In this document: positions 1-62,229 of the stretch, piece after piece
How the letters are laid out: every line of letters starts with the position of its first letter
Position numbering within the stretch: the stretch's first letter is position 1
Source of the DNA: a virus
Length of the DNA: 62,229 nucleotides
Strand: one strand, 5' to 3'
Virus record (IMG/VR): IMGVR_UViG_3300020477_000002
Location: 1 to 62,229 of that record
Made by a program: the position numbers and the translations under genes
Notes under the pieces: generated by a model
The model's input: only the letters and a program-made list of their open reading frames with translations
Databases searched by the model: none
What the model was told of the DNA's origin: nothing

Positions 1-77
1 ATCAGGCACATACCCGCACATACAGGCGTGTGTGAATGCCGAACCAACCCCACGCACAGGAGTGAACGATGGGAAAT
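1..77. repeat. Terminal direct repeat, left copy (circular assembly overlap)
   Basis: These 77 bases recur exactly at 62153-62229. A length of exactly 77 equals a common assembler k-mer, so the repeat most likely marks a closed circular contig and not a biological terminal redundancy. It contains two CACATAC repeats 10 bp apart (7-13 and 17-23), a ribosome binding site (AGGAG) and the start codon of the first gene. Confidence 0.93.
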
Positions 78-449
78 CTAGCAACAAAGCTACTCGAAGA
101 CGTAGCACAAATGCAATCACAGATTGCATCACTTGAAAAGGCCGTAGCGAAGCTAAGCAAACCAAGCAGAGCTAGAAGCGTAGCTTCCAGTGAAGCAGAG
201 CTTCAGCAGTTCCTGACGAAGCACGAGGAGGGCAAACCCTTCGCCCAGCTTCGGAAGGCTCTGGATGAGCACTACGCTGACTTCGCCAACTCCAGCTTAG
301 CAGAGCTAAGCCGGAAGCTGTTCAACAACGCAAAGATTAAAAATCTTTGCAAGGCTTGGGCAACACACCACAAAGAACCTTCGGTTCTGAAGTGGGCAAC
401 GGCTAAGACCAGAAACAACGCCAAGATTTTGGCTTGGTACAAAGGCTAA
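69..449 (+). CDS. Hypothetical protein in a hairpin-saturated, GC-rich gene
   Basis: Encodes 126 aa, basic and mostly helical, with a short coiled-coil-like N-terminus (leucine/glutamine-rich, residues 1-35) and a Trp/Lys-rich C-terminus. I do not recognise the family. AGGAG lies 5 bases before the ATG. The DNA is unusual: by hand count 68 of 120 bases at 181-300 are G or C (57%), against 33-42% in early-gene lines sampled elsewhere. The reading frame is studded with short perfect hairpins (111-129, 183-196, 192-204, 295-311, 330-350, 374-388, 420-433, 441-456), and the last holds the TAA stop in its loop. A strong terminator follows directly. Single-gene unit, foreign composition and own terminator suggest a moron. 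The transcript might also act as a structured RNA. Coding status is likely, function unknown. Confidence 0.7.
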   Translation: MGNLATKLLEDVAQMQSQIASLEKAVAKLSKPSRARSVASSEAELQQFLTKHEEGKPFAQLRKALDEHYADFANSSLAELSRKLFNNAKIKNLCKAWATHHKEPSVLKWATAKTRNNAKILAWYKG

Positions 450-462
450 AGCCTTTACCCAG

Positions 463-502
463 AACCCCTTGTGGATCTACGGATCTGCAGGGGGTTTTTT
501 TT
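463..502 (+). terminator. Rho-independent terminator with UACG tetraloop
   Basis: A 15-bp stem (463-477 with 482-496, counting G-T pairs) is closed by the tetraloop TACG flanked by C and G, the exceptionally stable cUACGg fold. A run of eight T follows (495-502). It sits 14 bases after the stop of the first gene and should insulate that gene from the early region downstream. Confidence 0.92.
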
Positions 503-861: not shown

Positions 862-905
862 GTAGTCTGGTAAAAGGTCAGGGGTTTCACCTAGTACCAG
901 ACTAC
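862..905. repeat. Perfect 11-bp inverted repeat
   Basis: GTAGTCTGGTA at 862-872 is the exact reverse complement of TACCAGACTAC at 895-905, with a 22-base spacer. The TACCAG core also occurs in the operator at 4048-4112, so one regulator may bind both places, but the two sites are arranged differently. A second small hairpin (906-926) follows immediately. Confidence 0.75.
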
Positions 906-1052
906 GATCCCTCAGGGTGAGGGTTCATCTAAAGGGTTTATAACAGGGTCAATTAGCTTAGGCTAAGTGGTTGTTTTATAAGCCTTTTAACTCATCGTAA
1001 ACGATGATTACATTTTCAAGCCTATATATATATTTTATTTACTATAAGACTA

Positions 1053-1667: not shown

Positions 1668-1904
1668 TACTGCCTTTAAATATACATCCTTCAACAGTAG
1701 TTCCGGAGTCTTGCATAGCAAGATTTCCCGGTGTGATTACTGAGGTTAGGTTACATCACCTAGCCTCAGTATCATGGGAAGTTTAAACCACATCTGAGTT
1801 GCTTCCCAATAGCTTAGTCAGAATTCTGAGCTATTGGTGTGCAATTCTAATGTCAGATTGCATATATGTCAAGTTATTTTTTACACACTAAACATGGAGG
1901 ATAT
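1668..1904 (+). other. Non-coding hairpin cluster before the small-gene operon
   Basis: At least four inverted repeats follow each other. They are a 14-bp stem with a 6-base loop (1738-1751/1758-1771), a 7-bp pair (1775-1781/1802-1808), an 11-bp stem (1807-1817/1826-1836) around the 12-bp palindrome TCAGAATTCTGA, and a short stem (1840-1848/1855-1862) followed by a T run (1877-1882). The second and third overlap and are mutually exclusive, as in attenuators. The cluster ends just before the ribosome binding site of the gene at 1905. Confidence 0.65.
1738..1771 (+). repeat. Strong 14-bp stem-loop
   Basis: TACTGAGGTTAGGT (1738-1751) pairs with ACCTAGCCTCAGTA (1758-1771) with one G-T pair and a TACATC loop. 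With a bulge the stem extends outward by three more pairs. It is the strongest hairpin in the leader of the small-gene operon. Confidence 0.75.
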
Positions 1905-3536: not shown

Positions 3537-3711
3537 TATAATGGACACAAGAATTGAATGTCCGCATTGCTTTTCACCTAATGTGGATCAGTTCGTAAAC
3601 AACGATGAACTATGGCACTGCCACACCTGCTCAGAGATGTGGGAAGTGGGAGAAAGCCTAGAGTTCTTAACCATTAAACATCCTGAACCTATGGAAGGGG
3701 TAAGCTTATGA
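3529..3711 (+). CDS. Small zinc-ribbon protein
   Basis: Encodes 60 aa. Two CxxC knuckles (CPHC near residue 11, CHTC near residue 31) separated by about 18 residues form a classic zinc ribbon. Such small ribbons often bind nucleic acid or RNA polymerase, so it is a candidate transcription modulator. GGAGG precedes the start and the stop overlaps the next gene (ATGA). Confidence 0.68.
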   Translation: MSDIMDTRIECPHCFSPNVDQFVNNDELWHCHTCSEMWEVGESLEFLTIKHPEPMEGVSL

Positions 3712-4234: not shown

Positions 4235-5407
4235 ATGAAAGCATTAAACTTTAACGAAACACAGACAGCCGTAGCTCTCTGTATGAAAGCTGATGTAGTA
4301 CCATTCATCTTTGGACATCAGGGTATGGGTAAATCAGCATCCATTAAACAACTGGTTGACCATATCAGTAGTGGCAGAAAGAAACCATTTCACCTGATAG
4401 ATCTAAGACTCTCACAGATTGAAGGCATAGATCTAAGGGGGCTGATGAAAATAGAAGATGGGATTACTAAGTATTACCCACCATCCTACCTAGCACCTAT
4501 GCTTGAGAAGGATTGGGAAGGTACTATCTTCATGGATGAGTACATGCTTGGTGATACTGATGCTCGTAAGGGATCTATGCAGTTAACAACTGACCGAAGG
4601 ATCGGGGAGTTTGTGTTCTCACCTAAGGTGTATCCTGTTATGGCATCGAACAGAACTCAGGATGAAACCATGCAGGGTAAACTGTCAGGCCCAGAGGCTA
4701 ACAGGTTTGCCATATGGGAGATGGATTATGATGCAGATTATTTTAATCAGGCTGCCGTAGCTGGATTTGAATCTGACTATAGTCATCTGCCTAAGTGGGA
4801 TGACCTGCCTGATCCACTGTCAAGAGAGGATAAGCACCCTGTTGATGGAAGGATAAGGTTCTTTATAGCCAATCAGGACACAACAAATAACCCTGTGTTT
4901 AAGAACTTTGATCGAGCATCTTTCAAGGCTGGATCATTTGCCCATGCTACTCCACGTTCATGGCATGCAGTGAGTAGAATCCTGCAAGTTTGTGATCGGG
5001 ATGCAGAGGTATGGGAGAAACTACCTAGCTTCAAGTCTATCCGCAGAGCATTAGTATGTGGATTGGTTGGAGATGGAGTAGGGACTAGCTTTACTGGCAT
5101 GATTGATCAGCTAGATAAGTTAGTTGATATCGAAGCAGTTAAACGTGATGGGTCTAAGGCTAAACTGCCTGACCAGAATGACTCCATGTGTGTAGGAATC
5201 TGCTGGATCTCAGTAGGTGTACTCACAAATGAGAGACACTTCACCCCAGAGACTGCTGATAATATTATCAAGTACATCAAACGACTTGGTGATATATGTA
5301 AGGAGTTACCTCAGACAGCTAAGGCTATGATTGAGGGTACAAATTGCCCATCAATTCAGAGTGCCATTGAGAACAGCAAGGAATATCACAAGCTTGCTGC
5401 TGCATAG
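4235..5407 (+). CDS. MoxR/CobS-like AAA+ ATPase
   Basis: Encodes 390 aa. The Walker A motif GHQGMGKS is at residues 27-34, the Walker B IFMDE at about 98-102, and a sensor-type segment (ASNRTQDET) follows at about 140. MoxR-type AAA+ proteins work with VWA proteins as remodelling chaperones that insert cofactors or activate partner complexes. Phage N4 also encodes an ATPase/VWA pair (gp24 and gp25). Here a DUF3150-like protein and a VWA/HExxH protein follow in the same operon, forming the expected triad. The actual target is unknown. GGAGG precedes the ATG. Confidence 0.88.
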   Translation: MKALNFNETQTAVALCMKADVVPFIFGHQGMGKSASIKQLVDHISSGRKKPFHLIDLRLSQIEGIDLRGLMKIEDGITKYYPPSYLAPMLEKDWEGTIFMDEYMLGDTDARKGSMQLTTDRRIGEFVFSPKVYPVMASNRTQDETMQGKLSGPEANRFAIWEMDYDADYFNQAAVAGFESDYSHLPKWDDLPDPLSREDKHPVDGRIRFFIANQDTTNNPVFKNFDRASFKAGSFAHATPRSWHAVSRILQVCDRDAEVWEKLPSFKSIRRALVCGLVGDGVGTSFTGMIDQLDKLVDIEAVKRDGSKAKLPDQNDSMCVGICWISVGVLTNERHFTPETADNIIKYIKRLGDICKELPQTAKAMIEGTNCPSIQSAIENSKEYHKLAAA

Positions 5408-5676: not shown

Positions 5677-6054
5677 ATGACTACATTAAATAAAGATGGT
5701 ACACCCAGAAAGAAAAGAATAACCAAGCAAATGATCATGGCAAAGAATAGGAAGAATGGTCAGAAGAAAGCATGGGCTACACGTAAGGAAAGATATCCTG
5801 AAACCAATGGATACAAACCTGAGATGGTTGACACTGACGTTAAGATTAGTGCACCTGTATCCACTGTTAAGGCGGAGCCTGTTGAATCTTCACTCACCCC
5901 TGATGTCTTGGAAAAGTTAATACAACTTGAAGACTTCCTTAATGATATCCCCGGCAATAACTTTAATAGAGATCAGTTTATTGCCAATGCAATTATCAAT
6001 GCAATAAATAGTGCCCTTGCAATACAGGGTGTTACACTCGTAACTAAAGACTAA
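5677..6054 (+). CDS. Hypothetical protein with basic N-terminus
   Basis: Encodes 125 aa. Residues 1-45 are very rich in Lys/Arg (KDGTPRKKRITK and KNGQKKAW) and look like a nucleic-acid-binding tail. Residues 70-125 form a more hydrophobic, helical domain. AAGGAG precedes the ATG. Unknown function, in the same operon as the AAA+/VWA pair. Confidence 0.65.
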   Translation: MTTLNKDGTPRKKRITKQMIMAKNRKNGQKKAWATRKERYPETNGYKPEMVDTDVKISAPVSTVKAEPVESSLTPDVLEKLIQLEDFLNDIPGNNFNRDQFIANAIINAINSALAIQGVTLVTKD

Positions 6055-9423: not shown

Positions 9424-10242
9424 ATGAGAAAAATTAAAACAACAAAGATTGGTAAGAAGGAATATGTAGAGGTAGACGAAAGGATACGTTTGTTCTGGGA
9501 GTTACATCCTAATTGGACAATCCTTACCGAGATGGTCTATAACTGTGAAGAACAAATGGTTTGTATCTTCAAGGCTAAGATTATAGATGAAAATGATGTG
9601 ATCAAAGCTACTGGTCATGCCCGTGAATTCCAAGCAGATAAAAAATCTATGGTTAATAAGACCTCACATGTAGAGAACTGTGAAACTTCAGCTATTGGTA
9701 GAGCCTTAGGTATTAAGGGTATCATAACTGAGTATGGCATCGCATCTGCAGACGAGGTTAGGAATGCTATAGAACAAGAGAAGGCTATGGATAGGGAAGC
9801 TAAGGAAGCGGAGCAGGATAAGGTTATTAAAATTGTAACCGATGCCGCTAAGAAAAAGGTGGAAGATGAGAAGCCTGAAGTTAATGTAGCTAGTGACTAT
9901 GCTTCCACTACCCTTACACAGGATGCTACCCCTGAGCAACTTGAATCCATCTTAGGCAAGAAGCCTAAGCAAAAAGAAATAGATGAACTTGAGAAGGAAC
10001 TTAGCACCGACAATGCTGAGGAGGAACAGGAATACTTAGTTGATTTAAACAAAAGGGTATCCATGTTGAAGAACTCCAAGGATGCTAAGGCTCTTGCTGA
10101 AGAGGGTCGCAAGTGGAGCAAGAACTGGACATACAAGAAGGATGAATACCAGACATTGTATAAATGTATTGCTGAATCATTTGCAACTTACAAAAGATCT
10201 GAGGATCAAGCAAAGGCTGCCAACTCTAAAGGAGGTTCATGA
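9424..10242 (+). CDS. Putative ERF/Sak-type single-strand annealing protein
   Basis: Encodes 272 aa. Residues 1-120 contain the block ETSAIGRALGIKGI followed by YGIASADEV, which I associate with phage ERF/Sak3-like annealing proteins. The C-terminal half (120-272) is highly charged and helical. Such proteins coat the tails made by the partner exonuclease and anneal complementary strands. Adjacency to the YqaJ exonuclease strongly supports the role. Family assignment within the annealing superfamilies is less certain. GGAGGAAC precedes the start. Confidence 0.7.
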   Translation: MRKIKTTKIGKKEYVEVDERIRLFWELHPNWTILTEMVYNCEEQMVCIFKAKIIDENDVIKATGHAREFQADKKSMVNKTSHVENCETSAIGRALGIKGIITEYGIASADEVRNAIEQEKAMDREAKEAEQDKVIKIVTDAAKKKVEDEKPEVNVASDYASTTLTQDATPEQLESILGKKPKQKEIDELEKELSTDNAEEEQEYLVDLNKRVSMLKNSKDAKALAEEGRKWSKNWTYKKDEYQTLYKCIAESFATYKRSEDQAKAANSKGGS

Positions 10243-11021
10243 TTAAGATCAACAACAATATAGGTGTTGGTGATAAACTTACAGGGGATCTCCTCAGAGA
10301 TCCTCTGGCATGTTCATTGCTAATGTATTTTATCTTCGACCATTCAAATGGAGATGAGCTAGGGTCTGTAATTTCTGTACAGGAGCTGTCAGATTATGTA
10401 TTACAAACCCCTAAGGTTATAAAGAAAAGATTGGAACGACTTGAAGAAGCAGGTCATATCATATCCATAAAACAATTTCATAATGAGGATAGCGGTAAGA
10501 AGTTAGCTAAGTTATACATGCTTAACTTTGATAGTAAGTTATTCCTTAAACCTGCTAAGAAAGCTGATCCAATTAAAATAACAGAGGATCATGATACGTT
10601 GATTAAAAAGTTTACTGAAATTAATCAGCGGGTTCATGGTATGGAATTTAAACCTGAGTCATCAGTTGAAAAACAACGATGGGTTAAGGGTGCTCAAAAA
10701 GTTCTGACACTTAAACCCGGAGGCAAGGAATTTGATATAGGAACATATGAAAAAGTTGTTGAGTTCCTTGCACATCAACTCAAGGACTTTAACAACACAG
10801 GAGATAAGTTTAAAATGCGATGTAAAGACATGGGTAATCTTGTATACAAACATCCTAATGCAACAGACTGTAAATATATTAAGGCATGGGAGATGATGAG
10901 AACAAACTCAGGTCACCGCAGTAATCTAATTAACAACATGGAGGAGAAGAATGTCCCAGCAACAGTCAATGATACAGGAAATGGTCATCAATCTCATGGA
11001 AGCATATGGGAAAAGGCGTGA
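10239..11021 (+). CDS. Putative replication initiator (lambda O-like, winged helix)
   Basis: Encodes 260 aa. Residues 20-75 form a winged-helix pattern (ISVQELSDYVLQTPKVIKKR, then LEEAGHI), followed by a second globular part (100-210) and a disordered tail. Placement between the recombination pair and a helicase-loader-like gene plus DnaB mirrors the lambda O-P arrangement. It would bind the origin and recruit the loader. No origin iterons were found inside the gene. Its 3' end overlaps the next gene by 71 bases. Confidence 0.6.
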   Translation: MIKINNNIGVGDKLTGDLLRDPLACSLLMYFIFDHSNGDELGSVISVQELSDYVLQTPKVIKKRLERLEEAGHIISIKQFHNEDSGKKLAKLYMLNFDSKLFLKPAKKADPIKITEDHDTLIKKFTEINQRVHGMEFKPESSVEKQRWVKGAQKVLTLKPGGKEFDIGTYEKVVEFLAHQLKDFNNTGDKFKMRCKDMGNLVYKHPNATDCKYIKAWEMMRTNSGHRSNLINNMEEKNVPATVNDTGNGHQSHGSIWEKA

Positions 11022-12832: not shown

Positions 12833-13461
12833 ATAGTGATAGGAAAAATTTGCCTAACAGGAGGCGTGGCTTCACCCAGAAGGCTCGCATAGGGGGACAC
12901 AAGATATACTTACATACAGGTGAGTATGGAGATGGTTCCCTTGGAGAGATCTTCTTGGATATGAATAAGGAAGGAGCTACATTGGGAGGCTTAATGAATT
13001 GTTTTGCAATAGCGGTTTCACTAGGCTTGCAGCATGGTGTGCCGCTAAGAAAATATGTTGATGCATTTACTTTCACAAAGTTTGAGCCGTCAGGTATGGT
13101 TCAGGGTAGTGATTGTATTAAGATGTCTACGTCACCACTGGATTATATATTCAGGGAGTTGGCAGTAAGGTACGATGACAGACAGGATCTGGCTCACGTA
13201 CCACCTGCCCAGATCGTAGACAAAAAGACTGAGAAGTATATACCAGAGATAGATGGATTACCCCTGCCAATAGAGGGAGCATCTGTCCCTGAGAAGATTC
13301 CAGTTGAGGTAACACCAAAGACTACACCTTCCAAAGCAGAGGAGGCAAAGGTCAAAGGGTATGAGGGTGAGGCTTGCACCTCATGCAGTCAGTTCACTTT
13401 AGTTAGGAATGGATCTTGCTTAAAGTGTGTATCATGTGGAGAAACTAGTGGGTGTTCTTAA
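12829..13461 (+). CDS. Orphan NrdJ C-terminal (TSCPD-like) domain protein
   Basis: Encodes 210 aa that correspond to the C-terminal part of class II (adenosylcobalamin-dependent) ribonucleotide reductase NrdJ. It has an [17 protein letters not shown] start, a central block [13 protein letters not shown], the [12 protein letters not shown] segment, and a C-terminal CxxC pair plus [14 protein letters not shown] that matches the redox-active/zinc tail of NrdJ. The catalytic barrel is absent from this genome. Split NrdJa/NrdJb genes exist in Pseudomonas, but here NrdJb stands alone. It may complement or redirect the host enzyme. It is coupled to dnaB by ATGA. Confidence 0.85.
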
Positions 13462-13481
13462 GCTAATACTATTATTGCTTA

Positions 13482-13519
13482 TTGTATATTCATACATTTC
13501 ATTCTATCCAGAATGGAAT
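13482..13519 (+). promoter_or_regulatory. Promoter with operator over the -10 region
   Basis: TTGTAT (13482-13487), a 17-bp spacer and TATCCA (13505-13510) make a plausible promoter for the regulator/SSB/RHH genes. A 10-bp inverted repeat with one mismatch and a 4-bp spacer (13496-13505/13510-13519) covers the -10. This is a likely operator, perhaps for the Cro/CI-like protein encoded at 13633. Confidence 0.6.
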
Positions 13520-13532
13520 AGTTTTATTCTAC

Positions 13533-13610
13533 AATTTTATAAATAATTTATTTTATTTATTTATTTATTTATTTATTATAAAATAATATTTATATTATTA
13601 TAAAAATAAT
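13533..13610. other. 78-bp uninterrupted A/T tract, candidate DNA unwinding element
   Basis: All 78 bases are A or T, including about six tandem TTTA/TTAT units around 13550-13577, with weak inverted symmetry. It lies between the helicase block and the SSB operon. Such tracts melt easily and suit an origin or a promoter upstream element. No initiator boxes were recognised next to it. Confidence 0.7.
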
Positions 13611-61888: not shown

Positions 61889-62152
61889 CTATTATTTTCA
61901 TGAGGGGATAAGCAACTCATATTATTTTGGGTTTTCGGAAGGGGGGTGTAAGAGAGTAGGAGTCCCATATATATATGTGCACGGGCGGAGGGTCGCCTGT
62001 GGGGGGGACTTTTTGTGCGAACCATTTATTTGATCTGATCTTTTTTCTGGAGGTCATCCGAATCTGGGAAATGCTTCGGGGCAATCGAGCCAATTTTTTG
62101 GGAAAGTTGTGCTAGACTGAAAGCAGATCGACTTGCCACTTTTGGCAGGAAG
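61889..62152. other. Intergenic junction region with G-runs and hairpins
   Basis: No gene. It contains G6 (61941-61946) and G7 (62001-62007) runs, GGG at 61983-61985 and 61990-61992, and the 12-bp palindrome CATATATATATG (61966-61977). It also has a short T run (62041-62046) and a TGCCA/TGGCA hairpin (62134-62138/62143-62147). GGG-GGG-GGG-GGG spacing at 61983-62007 could fold as a G-quadruplex. An extended -10-like TGCTAGACT (62110-62118) may start the plus-strand gene at 69, but no -35 is visible. Line 61981-62040 is 55% G+C. Confidence 0.6.
61983..62007 (+). other. Putative G-quadruplex-forming sequence
   Basis: GGG (61983-61985), GGG (61990-61992) and seven G (62001-62007, usable as two tracts) are separated by loops of 4, 8 and 1 bases. 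This fits the common G4 pattern with one slightly long loop. It lies between the divergent late and first-gene transcription units. Confidence 0.5.
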
Positions 62153-62229
62153 ATCAGGCACATACCCGCACATACAGGCGTGTGTGAATGCCGAACCAAC
62201 CCCACGCACAGGAGTGAACGATGGGAAAT
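62153..62229. repeat. Terminal direct repeat, right copy
   Basis: Identical to 1-77. It includes the ribosome binding site and the first nine bases of the gene starting at 69, so the contig should be closed by removing one copy. Confidence 0.93.

Follow-up and report, generated by a model that had tools for sequence, protein, structure and literature searches.

What fills one short phage gene, and no other gene of the same contig, with perfect hairpins? The gene opens the early region of an uncharacterised phage contig of 62,229 bases, analysed here in full and called the window, whose terminal 77 bases duplicate its first 77, the kind of end repeat that assembly of a circular or permuted genome leaves. 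From position 69 the early genes point rightward and encode an ATPase, a RecE-like exonuclease, a DnaB-like helicase, an SSB and a repressor-like HTH protein; late genes run leftward and encode the terminase, a head–tail adaptor, the capsid and a polyvalent protein of 3138 aa. By terminase, the closest named phage is Roseobacter phage CRP-7, a distant relative (30%), which has a similar genome layout with an early MoxR-type ATPase and divergent late genes, but whose first gene lacks the hairpin array. Searches of a phage collection returned no match to the window start or to the relative L021 (blastn) or to the gene product (tblastn), and a scan of GTDB genomes found no relative.

The gene encodes a small, Lys-rich protein of 126 aa with an N-terminal coil, a linker and a C-terminal module. 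A low-confidence AlphaFold model (pLDDT 64) is all-helical, a Foldseek search with this weak model found no match, and neither the product nor the proteins of its relatives matched Pfam, PHROGs or NCBIfam above cut-off. The gene and its flanking signals are as follows.

62110–62118, plus strand: extended −10-like element TGCTAGACT, preceding the gene and spotted by eye only.
5–40, plus strand: leader stem-loop GGCA...CACATAC/GTGTGTG...TGCC with one G·U wobble; shape kept in relatives.
58–62, plus strand: Shine–Dalgarno sequence AGGAG, read from the sequence.
69–449, plus strand: first early gene, an ORF of 126 aa with relatives at the same locus and purifying selection in close pairs.
461–498, plus strand: intrinsic terminator, a 17-pair stem followed by a T run, conserved across the clade.

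Downstream of the −10-like element, two leader stem-loops (62126–62155 and 5–40) precede the start codon; relatives have leaders of similar shape and different sequence, and −10-like elements that include TGCTATACT and TGATAGAAT. Positions 62110–62118 lie outside the region scanned for promoters in the window, and a scan of the corresponding L021 region did not pick the element up. The leader and terminator stems are of the ordinary RNA type, and Rfam covariance models matched nowhere in the window. The hairpins of the gene are listed below with corresponding sites in L003 and L021, the relatives whose proteins are closest to its product, in that order.

111–129: hairpin ATGCAATC-ACA-GATTGCAT, 8 bp; L003 keeps it with loop AGA.
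145–155: short hairpin TAGC-GAA-GCTA; the same codons in L021 form TCTGTAGC-AAA-GCTACAGA (8 bp).
175–187: hairpin GAAGC-GTA-GCTTC, 5 bp; L003 has CAGAGAC-GTA-GTCTCTG at the homologous position, two pairs having changed in a compensatory way.
191–205: hairpin TGAAGC-AGA-GCTTCA, 6 bp.
295–311: hairpin GCTTAGC-AGA-GCTAAGC, 7 bp; the L021 site is GCTAGC-GGA-GCTAGC (two compensatory changes).
330–350: hairpin GCAAAGATT-AAA-AATCTTTGC, 9 bp; nearby, shifted by a few bases, L003 and L021 carry (C)AAGAGC-GTA-GCTCTT(G).
374–388: hairpin AGAACC-TTC-GGTTCT, 6 bp, of the complement class; the other strand reads a GAA loop.
420–433: tetraloop hairpin GCCAA-GATT-TTGGC, 5 bp.
441–456: hairpin AAAGGC-TAAA-GCCTTT, 6 bp, whose loop contains the stop codon; present in L003 too.

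The first-pass annotation had called this gene saturated with hairpins, and each hairpin that it quoted lies where it was placed, the one at 192–204 belonging to the 6-bp stem at 191–205. The saturation is real and stronger than claimed: the gene holds eight perfect stems of at least 5 bp with loops of 3–4 nt, far outside the range of synonymous shuffles that keep protein and codon usage (mean about 1.2; 1,000 shuffles), with a count matched by 0 of 1,000 shuffles in one run and by one shuffle in an independent run (P = 0.001). Stems of at least 6 bp number five against 0.4, codon-order and dinucleotide shuffles agree with the synonymous shuffles on the excess, and the RNA fold of the whole gene has z = −4.9 relative to synonymous shuffles. 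These three kinds of shuffle rule out chance, codon usage and amino-acid composition as the source of the hairpins. Since contigs from many separate IMG/VR samples carry the array, it is unlikely to be an artefact of a single assembly.

No other gene of the window resembles this one, as had been noted for the genes read in the first pass. Among 70 non-overlapping ORFs it is the sole extreme, the others holding 151 stems against 144 expected, and it has the lowest local folding score of the 55 window genes of 200–1,000 nt. The only other dense spot in the raw scan, at about 13200–13550, overlaps low-complexity TTTA sequence. The second strongest local folding score (z −3.6) belongs to the early gene at 10239–11021, which looks winged-helix-like by eye, matches no PHROG and may hold a replication origin.

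Relatives of the gene occupy the same genomic slot and, taken together, are hairpin-rich. L003 was found by protein search and more relatives by patterns taken from the conserved leader and terminator, giving 17 distinct genes (the window gene and 16 relatives), each the first early gene; the slot reads conserved AT motif, −10-like element, leader stem-loops and gene, then an intrinsic terminator on contigs long enough to include it. The products are small and Lys-rich (97–154 aa; L017 runs off its contig): an N-terminal coil leads through a K/P/A-rich linker to one of several different C-terminal modules. These modules look swapped: L014, for example, combines the start of L009 with the end of L013, and modular exchange of coils and of C-terminal domains involves L014, L009, L013, L011 and L025. 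Such swapping in a first early gene suggests a host-interaction protein of the arms-race type. Members of the slot are real genes, because dN/dS is 0.18–0.37 in the closest pairs; with a ribosome-binding site present and the frame kept in all relatives, the notion of a palindrome-derived reading frame, raised earlier for this ORF, is not supported.

When 12 of the genes are tested singly, most exceed their synonymous shuffles in stem number, most clearly L003, the window gene, L013, L016 and L017. L003 has 11 stems against 1.8 in shuffles, ten of them at least 7 bp long, with a regular spacing of 37 nt (post hoc P = 0.0003) that is not obvious by eye in other members. Not every relative is significant singly: L018 is not, and with stems of at least 5 bp L005 and L015 fall on the borderline. 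Local folding over the 17 genes averages a z of about −3.3 relative to shuffles, with L015, L022 and L025 weak; as the genes are related, they are not independent samples in any of these family statistics. The set uses mostly different stems, and the array recurs even where C-terminal modules are unrelated. In L013, L020 and L024 the Shine–Dalgarno GGAG upstream of the start codon sits within the loop of a 5–6-bp C-GGA-G hairpin, which could gate translation.

This recurrence, and a rule that governs the loops, go beyond what the first reading had noticed. Triloops dominate (43 against 7.6 expected; 12 loops of 5–6 nt against 7.8), the closing pair is almost always C–G across the 17 genes, and the loops read C-[A/G]NA-G or its exact complement C-TN[C/T]-G. 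In stems of at least 6 bp, R-N-A loops number 22 against 1.2 expected and T-N-Y loops 6 against 0.1, with 0 other loops against 1.8; C–G-closed loops with other triplets are fewer than expected. These loop classes were defined during inspection of the data, yet they coincide with an independent published rule, that of phage N4. The sequence d(C-GNA-G) is a classic ultrastable DNA mini-hairpin with a sheared G·A pair. Tetraloops are a minority, with GNRA or UNCG in 2 of 19, and G·T pairs inside stems number 0 against a chance expectation of 0.9 (small counts). Local folding z scores are alike for sense and antisense strands and for RNA and DNA parameters. At the first mismatch beyond the stem, G·T occurs at chance level (small counts) and A·C in excess (23 of 61 against 18% expected). 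The A·C excess prompted the idea of an antisense-RNA function, which we rejected: one further pair follows in 13 of 30 A·C cases and in 13 of 41 cases with another mismatch, no clear enrichment. The loop rule, the strand symmetry, the missing G·U pairs and the rarity of RNA-type tetraloops favour DNA-type hairpins over mRNA structure.

Hairpins that follow the rule are restricted to this locus. With stems of at least 5 bp, 48 lie in the 6.2 kb of the 17 genes and 25 in the surrounding 178 kb, a density of 7.8 per kb within the gene against 0.14 per kb outside (55-fold). The remaining 61.8 kb of the window is near expectation with no clear excess, and adjacent non-coding stretches and small variable genes show no excess of such hairpins. 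The ORF comparison and the density outside the gene rule out hairpin richness as a genome-wide property. One hairpin of the same loop class, TCTTGC-ATA-GCAAGA, lies at window positions 1709–1723 in a conserved non-coding gap and is shared by L003 and L005. A separate conserved non-coding stretch at window positions 862–932 (L003, about 5879–5948; L005, about 3538–3608; L009, about 2109–2181; L010, minus strand, about 69–145) contains two stems, the long GTAGTCTGGTA.../...TACCAGACTAC and a second, GATCCCTC/GAGGGTTC, with both-side changes at two pairs. It is possibly a phage regulatory RNA and has no Rfam match at gathering score.

The closest known counterparts are the early promoters of N4 (Schitoviridae). 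Run on the first 12 kb of N4, the loop rule returns six sites, including 90–102, 557–573 and 4546–4562, which lie before early genes and which we take to be promoters P1–P3. The rule thus recovers the N4 hairpins, placing the array in the same physical class: P1–P3 have perfect stems of 5–7 bp, C–G closing and a 3-nt purine/A-ended loop, and they too lie at the left, early end of a podovirus-like genome. Extrusion of the N4 early promoters requires the closing C–G pair and the 5′ G and 3′ A of the loop (PMC4496689), a pattern that the array shares, with A also accepted at loop position 1. The loop rule, with its strand symmetry and the lack of G·U, argues for hairpins of the N4 early-promoter DNA type rather than mRNA structure. 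N4, however, has three hairpins before genes, whereas here up to a dozen lie within one ORF. It is very improbable that every hairpin is itself an N4-type promoter for a virion-carried RNA polymerase, despite the shared hairpin class. N4 promoters are served by a virion-encapsidated RNA polymerase of the T7-like fold and share a conserved start context; across the present hairpins there are no conserved bases past the stem core and no start-site context, and the 3138-aa late protein has no match to that polymerase and no polymerase motif, although sequence searches may miss diverged polymerases. The −10-like element upstream of the gene is of the host type, and most R-N-A loops here are on the coding strand, whereas the N4 sites found read T-N-Y on that strand. 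The earlier suggestion of polymerase-binding sites is not supported in this strict sense.

An explanation at the mRNA level, in which a chain of hairpins shields the transcript from nucleases or Rho, binds a protein for autoregulation or soaks up a host factor, is better placed but still unlikely. The array coincides with a transcription unit that runs from leader stem-loops to terminator, the minimum free energies of three genes lie at z −3.8 to −4.9 relative to synonymous shuffles, and the Shine–Dalgarno sequences looped out in L013, L020 and L024 would suit a role in the transcript. Yet the coding stems contain no G·U pair although the leader stem has one, triloops take the place of GNRA and UNCG tetraloops, and complement-class loops are as enriched as the sense class, with equal folding scores on both strands. 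A structured RNA product, another of the earlier suggestions, fits less well for all that the leader and terminator stems are RNA-type; a string of binding sites survives best as extruded or single-stranded DNA, given the loop rule, the strand symmetry and the absence of G·U, and less well as mRNA.

The stems themselves turn over. Aligned relatives show 182 one-side changes against 48 compensatory ones, and many hairpins have lost their pairing in the relative with which they align; individual hairpins are thus gained and lost at a maintained density. Homologous sites carry replaced stems, as in GAAGC-GTA-GCTTC against GAGAC-GTA-GTCTC, GCTTAGC-AGA-GCTAAGC against GCTAGC-GGA-GCTAGC, and AAAGC-GGA-GCTTT against CTAGC-GAA-GCTAG. 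The first-pass annotation had looked to conservation of stems in homologues; single stems are often lost, but the locus acquires others in their place and so retains the feature. Turnover of this kind is expected if the hairpins have a mutational origin and bring no benefit, with transient hairpins forming where transcription, supercoiling or replication at the gene is high, and template switching or hairpin mismatch repair perfecting the arms. That explanation, which we hold to be possible but on balance doubtful, also suits perfect stems without G·U and a loop rule that picks out the most stable DNA mini-hairpins. Homogenisation of the arms with inversion of the spacer (PMC8604942, PMC8794818) would look much like the strand symmetry seen here and the apparent AAA-to-TGT loop change between L024 and L018. 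There is a precedent in nematomorph mitochondria, where perfect inverted repeats in functional protein-coding genes are attributed to DNA maintenance (PMC6649704). The repeats here likewise lie in a functional coding gene, but the nematomorph ones affect many genes with arms of up to 284 bp, against one locus, arms of 4–9 bp and a strict 3-nt loop rule. A mutational process would also have to spare everything but a single gene in 62 kb, the rest of the window and the neighbours lacking a clear excess. Some changes look stepwise on both arms (L009 against L010 at KELRSW; the window against L003 at RSVAS, all transitions), and pairing past the stem is near random (18, 18, 15 and 13 of 56) with few decayed longer stems.

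Palindromes within coding sequences also occur as Rickettsia palindromic elements, which, as cited in PMC6649704, are inserted mobile sequences, whereas stem sequence here varies from site to site. We rejected a mobile palindromic element, the stems being unalike between sites and relatives and direct repeats being short (longest 17 nt). A search of titles and abstracts, with incomplete coverage of the literature, found no phage coding or early gene reported to carry short hairpins or palindromes.

The best reading, to which we assign a probability of roughly 0.4, is a selected array of extrudable DNA mini-hairpins within coding sequence. The same bases would carry two messages, encoding a small early protein and providing short perfect inverted repeats in an array. 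Under negative supercoiling or in single-stranded DNA these repeats may fold, on either strand, into unusually stable C-RNA-G triloop mini-hairpins (R, purine) with sheared purine·A closure and stems of 4–9 bp. By analogy with the N4 promoter hairpins they would extrude in vivo, and selection on DNA structure would retain them. Such selection explains the restriction to one locus, the loop rule, the strand symmetry and the compensatory changes. Against it stand the turnover of hairpins, which selection for fixed sites does not predict, and the span from Shine–Dalgarno sequence to stop codon, which is equally predicted at the RNA level. The weakest step is that the hairpins may act, close to where the early region starts, as structural sites that do not depend on sequence; candidate binders are the gene's own basic product, or replication and recombination proteins on SSB-covered DNA, and the array could alternatively be a supercoil-dependent switch of the first early transcription unit. 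That the gene is a double-coded DNA element, its stems re-invented while protein modules swap and its body serving as a binding array or topological switch, we put forward tentatively, as something that may well prove otherwise.

If selection acts at the DNA level, this locus would be a case of coding DNA under strong selection for local non-B structure, in which the chemistry of the N4 promoter hairpins serves something other than promoting, and the cellular role of extruded mini-hairpins would become directly testable. If the hairpins are instead mutational in origin, the locus would be a rare one-gene case of hairpin-arm homogenisation shaping a protein.
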